Translations under genes and position numbers: made by a program
Assembly: GCA_002189035.1 (NCBI GenBank)
Contig: NEEC01000002.1
Span: forward strand, 744,001-808,000
Length of the DNA stretch: 64,000 nucleotides
Source: Utricularia gibba
Taxonomy: Eukaryota; Streptophyta; Magnoliopsida; Lamiales; Lentibulariaceae
Reading direction: 5' to 3'
Notes under the pieces: generated by a model
The model's database searches: none
What the model saw: the letters and a program-made list of their open reading frames with translations, nothing else
Told to the model about the DNA's origin: nothing
Shown: positions 36,646 through 62,321 of the stretch, piece by piece
Layout: the number at the start of each line of letters is the position of its first letter
How positions within the stretch are numbered: the first letter of the stretch is position 1

Positions 36646-38508
36646 ATGGCTGGTGAACCGTCTCCTCAGGATGTGGCTGAAGCATTTGCTGCTCAATATT
36701 ATACTATCCTCTGTCGTTCTCCAGAAACTCTCCATAAGTTTTTCAAGGAATCGAGCATTATGGGGTGGCAAGGAGTAGATGGTCTTATGCAACATGTTAC
36801 AACCTTTGAGGTAAGGCTATTAAAAATCTGCCAATGTTGCTGAAGTCTACAGATTCTTTCATCATTGTCCTAATTTTATTTGCTCAGGGAATGAGCACCA
36901 TCGTCTCATCCACTGATTACAAGAATTGCACTGTGAAGCTTCAAACTGTTGATTGCCAGAAGTCACAGCATGGAGCTATTTTTGTCATGGTGACTGGTTC
37001 CTTTACTTTGCCTAATGATGATAGAAAGAACTTTGTACAGGCCTTCTTTTTGTCCAGACAAGAAAAGGGATATTTCGTCTCAAATGATATGCTTCGTGTG
37101 TATGATTCCCATGGCACCAAACCAGACTACAAAAATGATCATCCCGCAGCTGCAACCAATTCTGATAAGAGTAATTCTCTCTGCATTGGACTTTTCTAGT
37201 ATCTAATGCCTGTTGTGGTTTGCCATATATATCTGTCTCCTTTTTTCGCCACAGATGTGAATGTGGTGCTTGAAAAAGACATCAAGGAAGTTGTGGATTA
37301 CAGTGTATCAAAGCCTCTTGATACAGAATCTGCAGCCTCTGGCCCTCCTATTGACTCTCCAGTTCCTGTTGAGAGATCCTTTGATGACAGTACATCCTTG
37401 TCTACACCCGATACTAAACAAGTTCTTCAATATGAAATGGACTTCCCCAAAATTGCCATCCCTGCTTCTAATGAGGATGTTGATGCAAAAACTTTAACTG
37501 TTATCCCAAACGTCTCCTATGCTTCTGTGGTGAGTTATATTCCAGATTGCAAAAAGTTTAAAGCCTCATTTTTCATTTCACATACCTGAAAAACTTTCTT
37601 CTATTTGGAAGTTAACCAGAGAAGGTGTCATGACTTCCCCAACTGCAAAAATAGCTCTGGATGTTCAAACACAACCCACTGCGTCACTGAGAGCCAAAAA
37701 ACCGGAATCTTCGGAGAAACGTGTACCAAAGTCTCCACAGGCTAGAAACGGATCAGTAAGAGCTGAAGGTATGAATTCCCATTTCTCATCACCATTCAGC
37801 AGCATTTAGTAATCTTGGGATTTTCAAATTATAGTCACCCCCACTTCTAGGAATATATATTGGAGGATTGCCATATGATGTCACTAAACAAGATATTGCT
37901 GCTGCTCTCAATCATTTTGGAGCAATTAAAAGGCATTCAGATGCCATCCAAATTCGAAAGCATGAGGTTGAAAACTGCAAATATGATTGATGCATTTTGC
38001 GCTGCATTCCCTGCTATTTGCTAAGATGTTTGTGGTCCATTTTTCCAGGATGGTTTCGTTTGTGCATTCGTAGATTTTGAATCTGCAGATGCTTCTCACC
38101 TTGCAGTTAAGGTATATGCACACTTAATTTCACCTTGCAGATGTTTCGTGAGGTAGCAGCATCATAATTCATTTCTTTGTAGGCTCATCATGTGAGATTA
38201 TGTAACAAGGTAGCCTATATCTCATACAAGAGATCCCCTTCCTTTCAAGGTACTTTAAATTAAGCTCTTTTTGTCTCTCCCTTCTTGTGGATTGAAACCT
38301 CAATACCATTTCAGGTAAGGAAAGTGGAAAGAATGTTGCAACTCGTGTTGCTAATCAAAATGGTGACAAGTCAGGGGACGATAAAACCAATTGTCAGGCA
38401 AAGGTTCCCAGAAGAACTCACAGAAATGCCAATAATGGGAGGGCACTGGTATCCTTAGAAGCCACAGGATCCTCAGACGCGGCAGTTGAAGGCAAGCCAA
38501 TCCCATAG
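36646..38508 (+). CDS. G3BP: G3BP-like protein (NTF2 domain plus RRM)
   Basis: Plant relative of Ras-GAP SH3-binding protein, an RNA-binding stress-granule component. Eight exons: 36646-36810, 36888-37170, 37255-37529, 37612-37768, 37851-37966, 38049-38111, 38183-38249 and 38315-38508, encoding 439 residues. The NTF2 fold covers residues about 8-125: EAFAAQYYTILCRSPETLHK, GWQGVDGLMQHVTTFEG, ILVMVTGSF-like GAIFVMVTGSF, FFLSRQEKGYFVSNDMLR. A disordered acidic/Pro/Ser centre follows. An RRM starts near residue 294: GIYIGGLPYDVTKQDIAAAL as RNP2, then GFVCAFVDFESADAS as a degenerate RNP1. The tail is Lys/Gly/Arg-containing but has no strong RGG box. Exon 4 uses a TTGGAAG acceptor, the only one that keeps frame. 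The ATG 24 nt upstream in frame lies inside the probable leader intron, so I chose MAGEPSPQ. Confidence 0.9.
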
Positions 38509-38958: not shown

Positions 38959-40676
38959 TCAGCAACAGCAACAGCTTCTAAAGGAGAAGGGCTTGCATCG
39001 GCAAATTGGCTTCTTGATGCAACAGCTCGGCCACTTGGCGCAGTGGCATCCGCAGCTCGGCCACTTCGTGCAACAGGATCGACAATTTGACCACTCTATG
39101 CAACAGGATTGACAACTTGGCCACTCTATGCAGCAGGATTGACAACTTGGCCACTCCATGCAACAGGAAAAAGACTTGCAGTTAGGCCACTTAGTGCAAC
39201 AACATTGGAAGCTCCAGCAGGATCTGCACCATTTTAAATTGCAACTTGGCTGACATGACTTTCTGACGCTAAAACAGCTGCATGAACAGCAAGGCCGATC
39301 GCAGCTTGAGAAGGGGTTGAGTGTGCAGCTTGAACAGTGAAAACATTTGCAGCCCGAGCATTTTCCTGGCCAGCAACTCCAGCTAGGCTTATTTGTTGAC
39401 CACCTACAGCATTTGCAGCATTCGCAGCTATCTGGCCAGCATACACATTTGCAGCCCGAGCAACAAGACAAGTTCTTCTGAAGACAGCAGATTGCCTGCA
39501 GTGGACATGACGATTTGTTCTTCCTGAACTAACAAAATTTCCACATAAGAAAAGGCAAAATGTGGCAGGAAATGCAGCTAGCACAATGCAAAACAGCCAG
39601 GGAATAAAATTATATGGGGTGTCAGTTTGTACAACCCTTAATCTCATGGTCAAGATGTGGATACATGTTTCCTTAAAATGTTATGAATCCAGGCATACTG
39701 ATGTTGGAAAACACTACATTCTTTCTTATCTCTTCACAAACTAATGCTACATTTCTAGGAAAAAGAGGTCATAGTATAATATTTTATTGCAAACGAAAAT
39801 TGAACAGAATGTCACTAACTTCGGCAGGGAAGAATCTTGAGCAGTATTTTCGCTTCTACTGTCAGCAATAGAACTGTTTGGGATTTCAATACTGGCAATG
39901 ATCTTATTATTGCCCAATGCCTTGGGAACATTGCCCATTGGTTTGGTTTTTATCTCCCTTCTTTCCCCAGGCAATATGCTACTGCCACCGGCAGACTTGA
40001 GAGCATTGAGGTTCTGGCCAGTTTCCATCCCTTGCAACGCTAATGGTGTTTGAGGATTTCTAATGTCTATGCCTGAACTTTTTACATCACCCTTACTGAA
40101 GTCTACACCATGATATACTTCCTCCCCATTCTTGACAAGTTCACAAGATCTCTGTAATTCCTCGGATGCACACAACTCTACTGTCTTATAATCCCTGGCT
40201 AAACTATTTTTCCCAATACGAATACTGAACAAAGAATCATTAGACGCAACACTCCATTCCAAAGATGGTCTGCCGAAAGAGGGCACACTATTTGGGTCAT
40301 AATCTCCAGGCCTTTCCATCACTTGCAATGGAGGAGAATGCATCAAAGAAATGCACGAAGCTGAATTTTCCACGGAGATTCTAGAGACGGGTGATCTTGT
40401 TTTAGGAGACTTTTCTACATCTTTTCCCAATCCATTCTTGAGGCCACCTAGGACTTCAGCTCCCTCATCAGTTGAGGAAGCAGATGATGTAGCCACAGCA
40501 ATGGAAGAATCTGCCTTCTGTGGTAGAGAAAACCTAACTTCTTTATGATTTTTCTGTCGATCCGGCTTGCTTAAACTTTCAGAAGCTGTATTCATAGGTG
40601 ATAACCGCAATGAAGAGTATACAGGCTTATAATCCGGCAAAGGCACGGGCTCTCCCTTTTTTTCTCCATAGTCCAT
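38959..40676 (-). CDS. Uncharacterised plant protein with an expanded Cys-rich repeat tail
   Basis: Two exons, 40676-39820 and 39523-38959, encode 473 residues. Exon 1 (285 residues) starts MDYGEKKGEPVPLPDYKPVY and is Ser-rich. It contains SFGRPSLEWSVASNDSLFSI, a block I associate with a plant family of unknown function that ends in a short Cys motif. The donor AA|GTTAGT joins acceptor TTAGTTCAG in phase to a 188-residue tail that is nearly 29 percent cysteine (about 54). It begins SSCPLQAICC and ends RSCCCC. Part of it is 10-residue repeats of the form EWPSCQSCCI. No signal peptide, membrane helix or G-gamma-like helix is visible, although such tails recall type-C G-protein gamma subunits (AGG3/DEP1/GS3). 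Multiple Cys suggest metal or lipid attachment (inference). The Ala-rich alternative frame of exon 2 contains three stops. Confidence 0.68.
39031..39180. repeat. 30-bp tandem repeat, five units, inside the Cys-rich exon
   Basis: Units start at 39031, 39061, 39091, 39121 and 39151. The third and fourth differ at one base. The unit length is a multiple of three, so it adds 10 codons per copy in any frame. A partial sixth copy precedes it at 39009-39030. Open in the Cys frame, interrupted by stops in the other frames. Confidence 0.9.
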
Positions 40677-41915
40677 ACTTCAGTCAAAGGCATCAACATT
40701 CTTGTACATGGCTGTGTAAATCCGACAAACAATCATATTTGGGTGAAATGAAAAAGGATCAAACAACTATATCTCGCATTGAAAAATTATATTATTCAAT
40801 ATCAAATGCCATGAATTCGAAAAACAAAAATATTAAGAGCGTGAAAAAAAAAATTTGGACCAGGATCAAGCAAAATAGAGCAATCCTAACCTCGATCGAA
40901 GGATTTGATCATTCATAAATTGACGTAAAATCTTCGGACGATCTCCCCTTATGCGTATATACCTATGCTAAAGAAGAACGGGGAGATCGTGAGAAAGATC
41001 CTTCGATGACAAAGTCGGGAAGATTCAATTAGGGTTCTTGGCGAAAATGCATTAGGGGATGGATCCACGGAATGAAGATGGGAAGACCGGAGTTTTCGGA
41101 GGGAAACGATCTTCCAGTGTACGAGGATATTTGGCGCCATTTTGGCAACTGTCTTCGTTTTAAATTGGGCCCAGTACGGGTTGAGCCCATAACCATCATA
41201 CTAAAGCCCACTAAAAGACCCAGATGTCGCTCTTAAACGGGAACGAAGAACAATGCGACTGGGACACGTTATCTGATTGTCTGGGTCTCAGGGGGACGTA
41301 CACGTCGCTCTGCTGTTCTCCGGTGGACGAGAAAAGGGGGAGTGAAAAGTGGTCTTGATTCCGGGAAGATCACGTTATGGCTAGGTACGTACCGGATAGC
41401 TTTTTTTTTATTTCTCCCCGGTGACCCATGCTTTCTCTGTGTGTGGTTTTTACTGATCGGGATCGCGGCTCTTCGTTTCGTGTATTCTGTCTGAATTGTT
41501 TTTTTTTCATATTTCTGAATATTGATCACGTATTTTATTACTTTTAGACATCTGCGAGTGTAGGAATCTCCTTTGTTTTGTCAGAAATGTGGTTGTTATC
41601 TTGTCGTTTTATTCTAGTGTAGTTTTCTTGTCTTTAATCGTCATATCTGTGGCTTTGAATGTTTCGATTTTTGCGTATCTGTCTGCTCCGACGTATGACA
41701 ATTTTGGCTGCTGAGGTTTTTCCTATTTTTGGCTTCTAAATCAGGAAGGGGAACATAGTTCCCTCCATCTCTTTAAGCTGTATTTTGTGAAGTTTCTTTC
41801 GAGTTGTTTTATGAAACATCTACTTTTATATCAGGTTCAGCGCCGGAATGTGGTAAGAGATTTTGTTGCAGAATTATCGTGGAGACATGCAATCAACTTG
41901 TTGAAATAGAACTGG
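40677..41915. promoter_or_regulatory. Divergent upstream region between the Cys-rich gene and MRS2
   Basis: 1.24 kb between divergent starts. It contains TTTGGCGC at 41130-41137 (matches the E2F consensus TTTSSCGC) and a TTAGGGTT telo-box-like motif near 41030. Positions 41400-41850 are T-rich and likely the MRS2 leader with an intron. Functions are inferred from motif matches only. Confidence 0.4.
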
Positions 41916-43670
41916 ATGGCTCGACCCGAACCTCCACCTCGTGGTTCTTTTCCCGCTTCCATTAACTCTTCGAAACAATGTGCAGATGGGAATAGTGTTC
42001 AACACCCGTTTGTGTCTGGGTTTCCAGGGTTGAAGAAAAGAAGTCACACTCATGGAAGTCGGTCTTGGACATTGATTGATCCCAAGGGGAACTCAAAAAT
42101 TGTGGAGCTGGATAAATTTTCCGTCATGAGACGTTGTTCTCTGCCCTCCAGAGATCTCAGACTTTTGGATCCATTATTTATCTATCCTTCTACCATTCTG
42201 GGTCGTGATAAGGCAATTGTTGTCAGTCTTGAGCAGATTAGGTGCATAATCACAGCTGATGAGGTTTTATTGAAGAACTCCTTGGATGGGTGTGTAGTGC
42301 AATTCCAAACCGAACTATGCAAGCGCCTTGAAATATCGAAAGAGCACTATGGTAAGATGGAATTATAGGTACGTTTTCCTTTTTTGTTAATGGAGATGCT
42401 GAAATGTAATGGCTGCAGACTTCGGTTCTGTATGTGGTATTGCACGAGAATGTGTTTCGATGTCTAATAATTGCCCTCACTGTATTCTATGTTGACTCAG
42501 ACGATCTACCTTTTGAGTTCAAGGCTTTAGAGCTGGCTTTGGAACTCACATGCACCTCCCTGGATTCACAGGTGTTTAGTTATCTTCCTTCTCTTTTATT
42601 TACCGTGTTGAGTTAAGATTTTTTTCAATTTTATGCATAATACACATCTAGAAATACACGCTAATGGCTCCTCACAAGGCCTAAACACATACATGCTTAT
42701 GGATTGACTGAATGTAGGTCAAACAATTTGAGCTTGAGATTTACCCTGTTCTTGACGAGTTGGCAAGATCAATAAGCACACTCAATCTGGAACGCGTGCG
42801 TAGATTTAAAGGCCACCTCCTAGCCTTAACTCAGAGAGTACAGAAGGTAAGGTGTTGAGATAGGAGGCGCATATGCGAATCTGAGGGTTATTTAATGAAA
42901 TATTTTCAAACTTCAGGTTTGTGATGAAATAGAACAGCTGATGAATGATGATGGAGATATGGCAGAAATGTACTTAACCAAGAAGAAGGAAAGAAGGGAC
43001 AATGCCACAAATGACAATTTATCCGAAGAATTCAGTGATACACTGGAAAACTTCAAGTTTTCTTCAAGATCTGCACCTGTTTCCCCAGTAGGGTCATCTA
43101 CTGGAAAGAAAAGATATCAGAGGGCTTTCAGCAATATCTCCACCAAAACCTTCTCAAGCTCATCTGGTGATGAGAATATTGATCAACTGGAAATGCTGTT
43201 GGAGGCATACTTCGTCCTTGTGGACAGCACGCTTCACAAACTGTTATCGGTAGGAAAATTATCCCAATTGATTAGTTTCAGTCGTTCTTCATCATGCATT
43301 AATTCCATTTTCTTCAATGCAGCTCAAGGAATACATTGATGATACTGAAGATTTAATCAACATAAATCTGGTACTGATCATTGATATGTTTTTGCGTCTC
43401 TTACGGTGACTCTCTGGCTAACACATATTGTTGCAACAGGGAAATGTTCAGAATCAGTTGATACAATTTGAGTTACTCCTTACAGCAGCTACCTTTGTGG
43501 TTACTGTGTTTGCTGTTGTCACTGCAGTTTTTGGTATGAACTTCGAGGACCCTGTGTTTAATGACGCATCAACATTCAATTGGGTGCTCATAATTAGTGG
43601 AGTATTCTGTGGAATAATGTACTTCGGATTCTTGATTTATTTCAAGCATAAAAAGGTCATTCCTTTGTAG
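41916..43670 (+). CDS. MRS2: MRS2-type magnesium transporter (CorA superfamily)
   Basis: Mg2+ channel of the CorA/MRS2 family. Six exons: 41916-42351, 42501-42571, 42718-42846, 42917-43249, 43323-43370 and 43440-43670, encoding 415 residues. The long soluble N-terminal part has LDKFSVMRRCSLPSRDLRLL, ALELTCTSLDSQ, LDELARSISTLNLERVRRFK and QLEMLLEAYFVLVDSTLHKL, all standard for plant MRS2. Two C-terminal helices follow, roughly residues 350-370 and 383-403, with the pore signature GMN at 371-373 in VFGMNFEDPVF. The protein ends in a Lys/His-containing cytosolic tail (KHKKVIPL). All phases agree and no lesion is seen. No plastid transit peptide is obvious, so a vacuolar or ER/plasma-membrane member is more likely (inference). 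Convergent with the phosphatase gene, 258 bp apart. Confidence 0.94.
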
Positions 43671-43928: not shown

Positions 43929-46718
43929 TCATGAGGCGAGTGTCATCCGAGGACAACTATCCGGGACACAGTCTATTATGTCTCGGTAGTCTCGGCTGAT
44001 CCTGAATGAATCATATGTCTTCCCATCACTGCTCTTTTTGTACTCAAACAACAGGTTTGAGTGATCAAATGCAGTCAGCTTGACAAACCCATAGTCAAAA
44101 TCTCTGTAGATGCTCCAGCTTGGTTTCTGAGGCAGGAATGGCGTGAGGCTAGCTCCACCGCCCCCAACAACAACATGAATCGTCCCATTCAAGCTGCCCA
44201 GGTACCTGTTCTTCTCGTTGTTTGTGCATATATTCTGCGGCAAAGCGGTGCACCCTTCTGAATCCAAGAAAAGTGAGATGGAACTAGAGGGAGCCGGTGA
44301 TGAGGGACAGGTTACCTGGTAAATCGGACAAGTCCTTTCGTAGGAGTGAACATGACCAAACAAAGCAATGTCGACTCTATACTTCTGCCAGAGTTTTTGC
44401 AGTTCTCTACCCATTGGCTCCCCGAATGATCCTTGAAGTGCATAGAAGTCAGCAGAAGAATACCCCAATACCCGATGCGCGAGGAAGATGAGCCAAGGCT
44501 GTTTCTGCCTGTCGACAGATGCGAGACAGTGCTCGATGAATTCATATTGCTCAGTTCCTTCTCTCCAGTCATGCTCCGAATCCGCGATACAGAAACGAAA
44601 CATGCCATAGTCAGTGGCATACCTGCAAACAGAAGCAACTCATTCAGAATGATCATGCAGATGAACCATGTCAATGTACAACAGTTGGGGGCTTCAGCAA
44701 TGATAAACCAGAATCAGTGTACCAGAATTTTGCCCTGTTTTCAGCAGGGGTGAAGAACAACGTTTCTGCTGGAACTCCACATTCTCCACCGGAGTCATTA
44801 TTCTCATAGAAGGAGCCAGTACCAGGCCAGTCACGCTCATGGTTGCCACTACAAAGCAAACTCAGATTAACTAACCAGAAGAAGGTGAAGCAGACTACAA
44901 AGGCTTCCTGCTTGAACCTGCAAGATAGATACCTTGCAATCATGTATGGAACTCTAGAAGCGATCGGCTCGACTTGTGCTGTGAACTGATCCCACTGTGA
45001 AAGATAACCATTTGCATAACAGATATCTCCGATGTGGAAGACGATATCATAACTCCCCAAGCTGTCAATAAGCTGCTTGGTAGTGTTGAGGGCACCTCTT
45101 TGAAAATTGTTGTACTCGTTTGAACCATCATACTCATCCTGCAGTTGAAATGAACAATCTTAGCATCCGATACGACAACTCTTTCGAAAAAATTGAGCTC
45201 CAACCCAATGCAAATGGAGTTCCAAGCACAACCAGTAAAGGCTAAAAACCACACTGTAAAAGGAACGTCACCTTCCCCATATCACCAAAAATGATGACAC
45301 GCTGCAATGAGTCTTGACCGGGATATGGCGAAGCTTTGAAATGGTATATATCACTCAGGATGTCAGTGCCATTAGCCAACTTATGGCCAACTTTGTAAGT
45401 GTACCTGATGAATCATGAAGCATATTAGAGATGGTATGAAAGGATGATCTAATTGCCATGTACAGGATAAATCATACACTCTATTAGGCCATAGTTCCTT
45501 CAAAAATCCGGTATGGATGAATCCGGGATCTCGCCATCCGACTGTTCTCGCAGGTGCTCCTGTAAATGGAGACAAAACTTCAGATGCACATTCTGGAATT
45601 TATCTTGCTTCAAGTGAAAAGAGAAGGCAGGCGTACCACACATGGAATTGCGGTCGAATGTAAGAGTAGCAGCATAAGAACGCTTCTGCTCTCCACCCTT
45701 CAGGCCCCACTCAACGAAGGGCTCTGCTTCGTTGATGTCATATCCACTGGTCCATGTTACAGTCATCTGATCATATATTCAAGTTTGAGATGCTCAAGTT
45801 TCTCAATGATGAGGTGCTGTGTAGTGGAAACTAAATCTCAACCTCATTCCACTCCTTTCCTTGAGCCAGACGAGGATACAGGGGAGCATCCGGATATGCA
45901 AAGGAAACTGAATTTGATATAGCAACCAGTTTTGGCTGCAAAAAAGAAGTTGAAGTCCAGCATCGAACAGCAGGAAATCGAAGTTTAAGGCAATTTTTCG
46001 TATAGCCCACAATACTCACGTTTGATAGACCTCCAGAAAACAGAGCAAAAGAAAAATCTGATCTCTGGTTAATCAACTGAAGTTTTAAAGACCCCTTGCC
46101 TGTGTCTTTATAATTCGGATTGCTGAAATTGGCAAACTGGTACTGCAGAAACATAGAGGTATGCATTAAAGCTAAACTTTATGCAAGAGTGAAAAACTTA
46201 AAACTCAAGCAAAATGGATGCCCACAAAACCTTGATAGGAGCAGTACATAAATATGGTGCTCCAGCTCTTGGATTTTCCGGGAGGCAGACGGATGAACTG
46301 AACAAGGACGTGAATCTAAACCAACTGGGAAAACCTAAGCAGCATAACATCATAGACTTGGTCGTGTAATCACCTGAAGTTGGCCGGAGAAAATACACCA
46401 ATCCAATCATCGATGGAAGGTTTTGAGGTTCCATACTCCAAAGTAACCCATTCATTGTATTCTCCCTGAAGAAAGCACGAGCACGAGCCGGAGATGCAAT
46501 CAGACGGCTATAAAGATGCTGAATTCAGATAAACACGAGACACTTACGTAGGCTCCTAAAATAGATGGAGAAGCATCGATAAACGACCTCTCGTCTAAAG
46601 ATATAACCGTCTTCTCAACAGCAATCCTCGAAAGGGGCTGAACTCCATGTGATTCCACGTCTTTGAACCCAAAAAGCAGACCCAACAGAACCACCAAGAG
46701 GTTCAATCGAACTCTCAT
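43929..46718 (-). CDS. PAP: Purple acid phosphatase (PAP27/PAP1-like, large-subunit class)
   Basis: Secreted binuclear metallophosphoesterase. Twelve exons: 46718-46548, 46465-46374, 46315-46231, 46142-46020, 45935-45843, 45766-45637, 45559-45478, 45404-45272, 45138-44933, 44848-44723, 44622-44316 and 44234-43929. Total 617 residues. A signal peptide lies at the start (MRVRLNLLVVLLGLLFGF). A fibronectin-like N-terminal domain (WVTLEYGTSKPSIDDWIGVF) precedes the phosphatase core. The metal ligands are all present: FGDMG, GDICYANGY, GNHERDW, AHRVLGY, and FGHVHSYERTCP. The C terminus contains VVVGGGGASL and SWSIYRDFDYGF. Several NxT/NxS sites fit secretion. The group also contains nucleotide pyrophosphatase/phosphodiesterases, so the substrate is open. 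The acceptor ten bases before the ATG implies a spliced leader. Confidence 0.94.
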
Positions 46719-59492: not shown

Positions 59493-62321
59493 ATGAGAAA
59501 GCACGGTTGGCAGCTTCCTTACCATCCGCTGCAGGTATTTTCTCCTCTATTTCTCTTCTTTATATTCGGAGTCTCTTAGCATAAATCTATATGCCTGCAG
59601 GTGGTGGCGGTGGCTGTATTTCTTGCACTGGGATTTGCTTTTTATGTGTTCTTTGCTCCTTTTCTGGGAAAGCAGTTGTTCCAGTACATTGCAATGGGGA
59701 TTTACACGCCTCTTGTGAGCAAATTTGCACCCTTATCTTCGATTTTGATGTGGTTTAACTTCCAGTTTCCTTTTCAGTAAGCTTTTGCATACATCAGGTT
59801 GTGCTTTCAATGCGTTTTTGCTTTATGATTCACGCATATTAATAGTTTCCCTCAATTACTATTCTAACCTTTCCTCATTTTCCTTGTTTGGGTTCCGGGA
59901 TTTGTTCATAAAATCATTCATATCTTTTTGGAAGTATTTAGAGATATCAGTTCTACATATGGATTCCTCAGATCCTCTCCCATTCTATAAGATCGAAATT
60001 GCTATATTTAGAAAAAAAAAAGTATCATGCTATGTACCTTAAATGACAGCATCTGTTGTATGTAATACTAATCACTCCTGAAAGTTGATTCTTCATAATG
60101 CTCTCGCTTATCTTAACTGGTTGGTGATGAGAGTTTTGTGTCCCTGATCTGTTACTGGTATCCTCTGATTTCTCCAGTTGCTATCTTCCTTCGGCTTGTA
60201 CATTTGGTGCGCGGCAGCTGATCCTGCAGACCCTGGAGTCTTCAAGTCCAAAAAATATCTTCGAATTCATGAAAACAAACAGCGTAGCTTTCCCAGAGGC
60301 TCTAACCATGAGCTGTGTTCATCCATTCAAGACAGCAGAATAGAGGCGAATGAGGGGGAGCCAGTGTTGAAAGAAAAAGTGATAATGAGTCGGCTGTTGA
60401 ATGCAACTCCAAGCCTCAGAATCAAAGATGCTGCATTACAGTGCTTCTGGCTATGTTGCCGTGTGCATACTTTTGCAGTGCTGGGGAAGAGAATGCTGAT
60501 AAACATAGTGAAGATGGGATGTTCTTCTGTAGTCTGTGTGAAGTAGAGGTTTGTGTAACATCTCGTTGCATTTATCTCCACTTCATCTGTGATCACACTA
60601 TGAGTTAAAATTCCTGTGTAGGTTTTCAAATACAGCAAGCATTGCCGAGTTTGTGATAAATGTGTCGACTGCTTCGACCATCATTGCCGGGTAAGAAAAT
60701 ACCTGGATTCCAGTTACATTTCACCAGATTTCAAGATAGCTTTCATACCATCTTGCTCTTATTTGCAGTGGTTAAACAACTGTATAGGCAAAAAGAACTA
60801 TAGAAAATTCTTCCCTCTGATGGTTTCTGCTCTTCTCCTGGTATAGCATCCACCCACTCCTTTACATTCTGACTTTTATCATACTCTTGAATCCTTTAAT
60901 TTGGCAATGCAGCTTATTCTTCAATGGACAACGGGGATCATTGTCGTCGTCCTATGTTTTCTTGAGAAGAAGAGATTCGCTTCTGAGATCAGCTCCAAGC
61001 TCGGGAGCAGTTTTACAGTTGTTCCATTCGTAATCGTTGTCGTGAGTGCTGCTTCCCCATAAGTTCTTCCTCCACAGTATCATCTGTTTTCAAAAGACAG
61101 ATTGTTGAACTTGCAGGGAGTTTGCACAATACTGGCCATGGTGGCCACCTTGCCTCTTGCTCAGCTCTTCTTCTTCCACGTTCTTCTCATAAAAAAGGTC
61201 TGATTTTCTTACCACCTACTCTCTGCTATTCATGATCTGATTGCTTCAAAACATTGGGAATGATAGGGGCTGAGCACATACGACTACATTGTAGCTCTGA
61301 GAGAGCAAGAGCAGCAGGCAGTCATGGGTGGGGGTCAGAGTCCTCAAATGTCCCTAGTCAGCTCTGTTACTGGACTAAGCAGCACGAGCTCGTTCAATGC
61401 ATTCAATCGAGGTGCATGGTGCACACCGCCACGGCTGTTTGTTGAAGATCAGGTATCCACACTCTTGTAGAAATATTTGCTTGGAGGGGAAAGAATGCAT
61501 TCCTTTCCTCATCATGCCACTTCTGTTTGCAGTTCGATGTCGTGCCTCCAGACAATATCTCTGTCAGTTCTCTTGGAAAGAAGATACCTGCGGAGGAACA
61601 GTTAAAGAAGAAGACCCCAGCGGCTGTGAAGATCAGCCCTTGGACACTGGCCCGCTTAAACGCAGATGATGTGACCAAGGCAGCTGCGGAAGCTAGGAAG
61701 AACTCAAAGATTCTACGCCCTGTTGGGAGAAATGAATCAGGTTATCCTGTTGAGACAGAGAGCAGTGTTGGCAGCAGTGGTCGTAGGACGGCACTGAAAC
61801 TGGATAGCCACCGGAAACGAGGCAGCCGGAGGATTCACCTACCTGCGGAGGTGCCCTTTGAACAGAGGCAGAGGTATCCTACTTCAGATCACAAAATCAT
61901 CTCAGATGATCATCACACTATGAGCAGGGGAACATCTTCAAGCTTTGCTCCCCTGCAGCTGGAAGCAAGAAATGCTTTCCATCCGAACCGAGCAGTGTCG
62001 TTTCCATCTGAAAACATCACTTCCTCACCGGAAAGTAGCTTGGATTCTCCTGGTCTTGATCCATTCCAGGCTTCTTCATCTGGCCGTGAAGATTCTCGAA
62101 CACTTGCGGCCGCAGCTGGCGTGCTACCCAGTCGGGAAGACATCCTATTGTCAAGATCAACTAGTGATGGGTATGATGCATCGGGTGGAGAAGACAGTGA
62201 TCGAGGTCCAGCAAGGTTCCTGAACAGGCAAACCAACTGGTCAAACATACTCTTTGGATCTGAAACCGAAATCAGCATCTCAAACTTCGGGCAGACGACA
62301 TCATCCTCCTCGAAGGTGTGA
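59493..62321 (+). CDS. PAT: DHHC-type protein S-acyltransferase (PAT), frame disrupted by one base
   Basis: Palmitoylates cysteines of membrane proteins. Nine exons: 59493-59534, 59601-59714, 60178-60548, 60622-60690, 60769-60840, 60913-61041, 61117-61197, 61267-61452 and 61533-62321. Restored length is 617 residues. Two N-terminal membrane helices lie in exons 2 and 3. The Cys-rich domain runs [40 protein letters not shown] with the catalytic DHHC. Two more helices follow ([36 protein letters not shown]), then [16 protein letters not shown] and a long Ser-rich cytosolic tail. Exon 3 is 371 nt where 372 are required. One more G in GGGGG at 60354-60358 restores [20 protein letters not shown] and joins the DHHC domain in frame. 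As written the frame stops near 60546. The group matches the plant PAT19-22 type with a long C terminus. Confidence 0.88.

Follow-up and report, generated by a model that had tools for sequence, protein, structure and literature searches.

Background

BASL is a stomatal polarity protein, and FxFP is a MAP-kinase docking motif. The conserved C-tail of BASL (At5g60880) and of the BASL-like (BSLL) proteins is composed of the sequence FAFPI/VL and a C-terminal CC motif (PMC5014157; PMC9561702). The Cys motif appears as CCR/KF in a published alignment of BASL and BASL-like sequences, and in BASL it has been proposed as a palmitoylation site (PMC5014157). Genes for BASL-like proteins occur across angiosperms and have the docking domain in common (PMC9561702).

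Here we analyze a gene from a 64,000-nucleotide stretch of the Utricularia gibba genome (hereafter "the window"), which was originally predicted, from the sequence alone, to encode a protein with an unusually Cys-rich tail. According to our sequence comparisons, this protein descends from the BASL/BASL-like group and has lost the FxFP docking motif; both points had previously been missed and constitute the new result of this work.

Gene structure

The gene is located on the minus strand and comprises two predicted exons, joined in frame at a phase-2 junction to encode 473 residues (Table 1). With a rough plant weight matrix, donor 39820 and acceptor 39523 were the top-scoring splice sites of their regions. 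This best-scoring pair, together with the phase-2 intron also present in the paralogs described below, bears out the original prediction that the N-terminal exon is joined in phase to the Cys-rich tail, the junction itself being a predicted one. The reported size and Cys content of the tail (188 residues, of which about 54 are Cys) turned out to be exact.

Table 1. Features of the BASL-like gene (positions in the window)
Feature	Position	Strand	Description
Exon 1, coding sequence	39820..40676	-	ATG at 40676; 285 codons and 2 bases; BASL-like N-terminal part; open frame, paralog matches
Conserved block, residues 111-160	40197..40346	-	LMHSPPLQVMERPGDYDPNSVPSFGRPSLEWSVASNDSLFSIRIGKNSLA; most conserved stretch among the three paralogs
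Phase-2 intron, predicted	39524..39819	-	best donor (39820/39819) and best acceptor (39524/39523); equivalent phase-2 intron in both paralogs
Exon 2, Cys-rich tail	38959..39523	-	188 residues including the split codon, 54 Cys, TGA stop; sole stop-free frame
First CWP motif, CWPDSC	39424..39441	-	aligned by BLASTP to the L003 end (SCWPHCC)
SCWPGKC	39358..39378	-	nearly identical to SCWPGRC at the L004 end
30-nt tandem array	39022..39168	-	MEWPSCQSCC / IEWPSCQSCC / IEWSNCRSCC / TKWPSCGCHC / AKWPSC...

Among the six frames of exon 2 only the Cys frame is free of stops, the other five containing from 3 to 8. The openness of this exon is only moderately significant, because its sequence is poor in stop codons: a frame of at least 188 codons was obtained in 21 of 5000 dinucleotide-preserving shuffles. 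Codon-usage scores did not tell the exon 2 frames apart. Between the repeat units of the tail, the Cys frame has the lowest pN/pS ratio (0.43, vs 0.50 and 0.76 in other frames), which lends weak support to coding in this frame. Exon 2 is also overlapped by a second, Ala-rich frame on the minus strand (39234-39680), open for 148 codons, which would be entered from acceptor 39495.

Upstream of the gene, a short ORF on the same strand (40680-40709; MYKNVDAFD, TGA) stops just short of the ATG at 40676, with a few bases between them, and possibly controls translation. The neighbouring genes, named after their Pfam matches, encode an NTF2-domain protein (36810-37196, plus strand), a MRS2-like magnesium transporter (41910-43336, plus strand) and a purple acid phosphatase (43932-45159, minus strand).

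Relationship to the BASL-like proteins

A search of the genome (100.09 Mb in 516 contigs) revealed two paralogs, L003 on contig C4 and L004 on contig C505. Each is split into two exons by a phase-2 intron that follows immediately on Phe-Ala-Phe-Pro and the split codon, so the FAFP motif (FAFPV/FAFPL) falls on the exon junction, at residue 205 in L003 and at residue 150 in L004. Their C-termini read ...CSLFSCWPHCC in L003 and ...WFGWLSCWPGRCC (SCWPGRCC) in L004, in agreement with the earlier expectation that relatives of the N-terminal part end in a short Cys motif. As FAFPV/FAFPL followed by a C-terminal CC is the signature described in the literature cited above, we assign both paralogs to the BASL-like group by motif.

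For exon 1 of the window gene, the match to L003 is 54% over 58 residues (E 1.3e-9; alignment z 15.8 over shuffles) and that to L004 has an E of 5.3e-4 (z 9.1); both rest mainly on the pattern MxSPPLQxMxxPxxYDPxxxP...EWSVASNxSLFSIxxG. The three proteins have in common the conserved middle block and the place and phase of the intron, and each of them ends in Cys. On the other hand, the window protein has an additional N-terminal part (VPLPDYKPVYSSLRLSP) without counterpart in L003 or L004, and carries 54 Cys residues in its tail in place of a final CC motif. The tail is rich in Cys along its whole length and ends in RSCCCC, both paralogs end in plain CC, and a CC followed by R/K-F is absent from the window protein. 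FxFP was not found anywhere in the 473 residues of this protein; the corresponding place is occupied by SSLPK (or by IEIP in another alignment). The homology that links exon 1 with L003 and L004, together with the equivalent phase-2 intron, indicates common descent with FxFP-bearing relatives. We therefore regard the window protein, with considerable confidence, as a diverged BASL-like paralog; motif and descent together make this a fairly firm assignment, but given that FxFP is absent we do not class the gene as a functional BSLL. By this comparison the window copy has lost FxFP and has had its short Cys terminus replaced by an expanded tail.

L003 and L004 have in their flanks (L050, 8341-9576, and L055, 3867-4716) a common neighbour gene, located downstream on the same side and in convergent orientation, whereas no neighbour gene common to the window and either paralog was found. 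For this reason L003 and L004 seem to have arisen from each other by segmental or whole-genome duplication, and the window gene seems to represent an older branch, with no sign of a recent segmental duplication from them. As to the lineage-specific expansion of the tail that had been suggested originally, the tail is indeed longer than in the two paralogs, and what this comparison covers is the paralogs of one genome only.

The Cys-rich tail

The tail contains 54 Cys (29%), 32 Ser, 18 Lys, 12 Trp and 7 Phe residues, and with 25 K/R against 6 D/E it carries a net charge of about +19. The WPSC repeats that had been noted as a part of it are evident at two levels. At the DNA level, TRF reports 3.7 copies of a 30-nt unit with 87% matches (39059-39168), surrounded, also upstream, by more diverged copies; the unit encodes (E/K)WPSCxSCC. 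At the protein level, WP(S/N)C occurs 5 times, vs 0.05 expected from residue shuffles, a number never equalled in 3000 of them. The CC, CxC and CxxC spacings in the tail showed no excess over the same kind of shuffles. Upstream of the array the tail is almost as dense in Cys (27% in its first 100 residues) and contains both CWPDSC and SCWPGKC. The match of SCWPGKC to the L004 end is a modest one, as 7 of 500 tail shuffles attained its score of 48, and the score of the tail against the L003 end was reached in 133 of 500.

No transmembrane stretch is evident in the tail (best 19-residue hydropathy 0.99), and single-sequence structure prediction gave no confident fold for either part of the protein (mean pLDDT 37.6 for the tail and 46.1 for exon 1). 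Searches of Pfam, NCBIfam and PDB sequences returned no match, the tail being without any Pfam or PDB match. Used as a query across the same genome, the tail detected no further copy, only one chance-level match (E 0.49).

A putative membrane anchor

The most probable role of the tail, in our opinion, would be that of a multiply S-acylated membrane anchor, although we give this reading no better than an even chance. Basic clusters of Cys with Trp among them are typical of acylated stretches. We favor the anchor because the tail is net basic, contains 12 Trp and has no predicted fold, and because the ancestral short motif occupies the site at which acylation of BASL-like proteins has been suggested. 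According to this scenario, the ancestral C-terminal CC motif, thought to be an acylation anchor, would have been extended beyond the old stop and multiplied, in part through the 30-nt tandem duplication. The resulting disordered, basic tail may be S-acylated on several Cys by DHHC enzymes, with its Trp and Lys residues aiding the seating at the lipid surface, and the protein would thus acquire a near-permanent hold on the membrane while no longer recruiting MAP kinases via FxFP. Taken as a whole, i.e. a diverged BSLL paralog in which FxFP was lost and the CC motif grew into an S-acylated basic tail, the scenario seems to us about evenly balanced between being right and wrong. The DHHC-type S-acyltransferase sequence that had been noted in the window can be read by eye at 60622-60846 (plus strand); the argument does not need it.

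Several observations count against the anchor. In Arabidopsis, replacement of the last two Cys of BASL by Ser left its polarity and function unaffected (PMC5014157), so the CC motif is no proven anchor in this family. Mutation of putative acylation sites matters in the BRX-family proteins rather than in BASL (PMC8774072). Sequences with the BRX domain are abundant in the U. gibba genome. The modest match of the tail to the paralog ends, and Cys spacings at the level expected from composition, likewise speak against the anchor. In favor of the anchor, the other in-frame CWPxxCC(C) sequence that recurs in the long open frames of the genome is CNCWP(K/S)WCC(C). Five loci (L025, L036, L037, L038 and L039) carry CNCWPKWCCC (or CWPSWCCC), a motif similar in its CWPxxCC pattern to the ends of the BASL-like paralogs; we take these loci to be cellulose synthases, with the motif in the VR2 region. 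In Arabidopsis CESA7, VR2 is S-acylated at four Cys (PMC10756762). The likeness consists of a short CNCWPKWCCC beside basic residues, but the protein is unrelated, and the resemblance does not exceed what the composition of the tail provides (43 of 500 shuffles), which also weighs against the anchor.

Alternative explanations

If another frame of exon 2 were used, e.g. by way of acceptor 39495 or 39528, the protein would have an Ala-rich C-terminus, about 90-100 residues in length, and the presence of the Cys frame would be incidental. Acceptor 39495 nearly equals 39523 in score (4.50 vs 4.67), and the Ala frame stays open as far as 39234; however, the best pair of donor and acceptor yields the Cys frame, and it is this frame only that reproduces the Cys terminus with a CWP motif present in the second exon of both paralogs. 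We regard the use of another frame as very improbable. It is easier to imagine, though still rather unlikely, that the tail is neutral or degenerating, i.e. that the old stop and FxFP were lost and slippage lengthened a stretch coding for Cys, Ser and Trp, perhaps in an incipient pseudogene. The loss of FxFP would agree with such drift, as would the recent-looking 30-nt repeat that makes up a part of the tail, the retention in exon 1 of just a short well-conserved block, and the proximity of the pN/pS ratio in the Cys frame (0.43) to that in another frame (0.50). Yet exon 1 is open throughout and has kept the EWSVASN(D/E)SLFSI block, all 188 codons of the tail are open, and the tail is Cys-dense well beyond the array.

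According to the main rival of the anchor, the tail would serve as a thiol-rich metal trap or redox buffer attached to the BASL-like N-terminal part, in a manner comparable to the Cys-rich region of rice DEP1; we consider this rather unlikely, to about the same degree as drift. The high number of Cys and the predicted disorder of the tail are consistent with it. Metallothioneins have a similar Cys content, near 30%, but many Trp and Phe residues are atypical of them, whereas the tail is long, contains 12 Trp and 7 Phe, and matches no metallothionein family in Pfam and nothing in PDB. In addition, CxC and CxxC are no more frequent in the tail than its composition predicts, and the short motif of the paralogs, with three Cys only, makes an unpromising metal site; metal binding would therefore have to be a newly gained function. 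The Cys content of 29% compares with 28.2% in OsDEP1, the Cys-rich half of which makes yeast and plants tolerant to Cd, direct trapping of Cd having been proposed (PMC3808331). The superficial likeness to type-C G-gamma subunits that had been pointed out at the outset, in the absence of a G-gamma-like helix, is one of composition: DEP1, GS3 and AGG3 also have a long C-terminal tail with approximately 28-29% Cys. A true subunit of the GS3/DEP1/AGG3 kind is nonetheless extremely improbable, since exon 1 contains no G-gamma domain (Pfam, E up to 1) and is homologous to FAFP-bearing proteins; furthermore, the units of the tail are of the (E/K)WPSC form. As a positive control, an AGG1 sequence scored 5.1e-15 in the same Pfam search, and with the GGL domain absent and the control detected, type-C G-gamma identity of the spliced sequence is refuted. 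In the genome, a search with PF00631 gave one sub-threshold match only, in a frame read as transposase-like, and the AGG1 query gave none.

Implications

In the related species U. vulgaris, the flower stems bear stomata and the submersed organs do not (PMC4358910); hence, a BASL-like gene in such a plant need not act in stomata. It is tempting, if speculative, to consider the window protein as a BASL-like scaffold rebuilt in an aquatic carnivore, in which docking was dropped and an acylated tail with 54 Cys made it a permanent, high-avidity membrane scaffold outside stomata, e.g. in polarizing the cells of traps or glands; we think this rather improbable. The gene would suggest that very Cys-rich tails have arisen a second time, independently, among the signalling proteins of plants, the type-C G-gamma subunits being the other case. 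How scaffolds reach the membrane and stay there, and whether the C-terminal Cys count, are questions of the BASL field. A natural paralog in which the docking motif was lost while the Cys terminus grew from 3 to 54 residues would separate the two functions, and would test the selective value of membrane anchoring alone.
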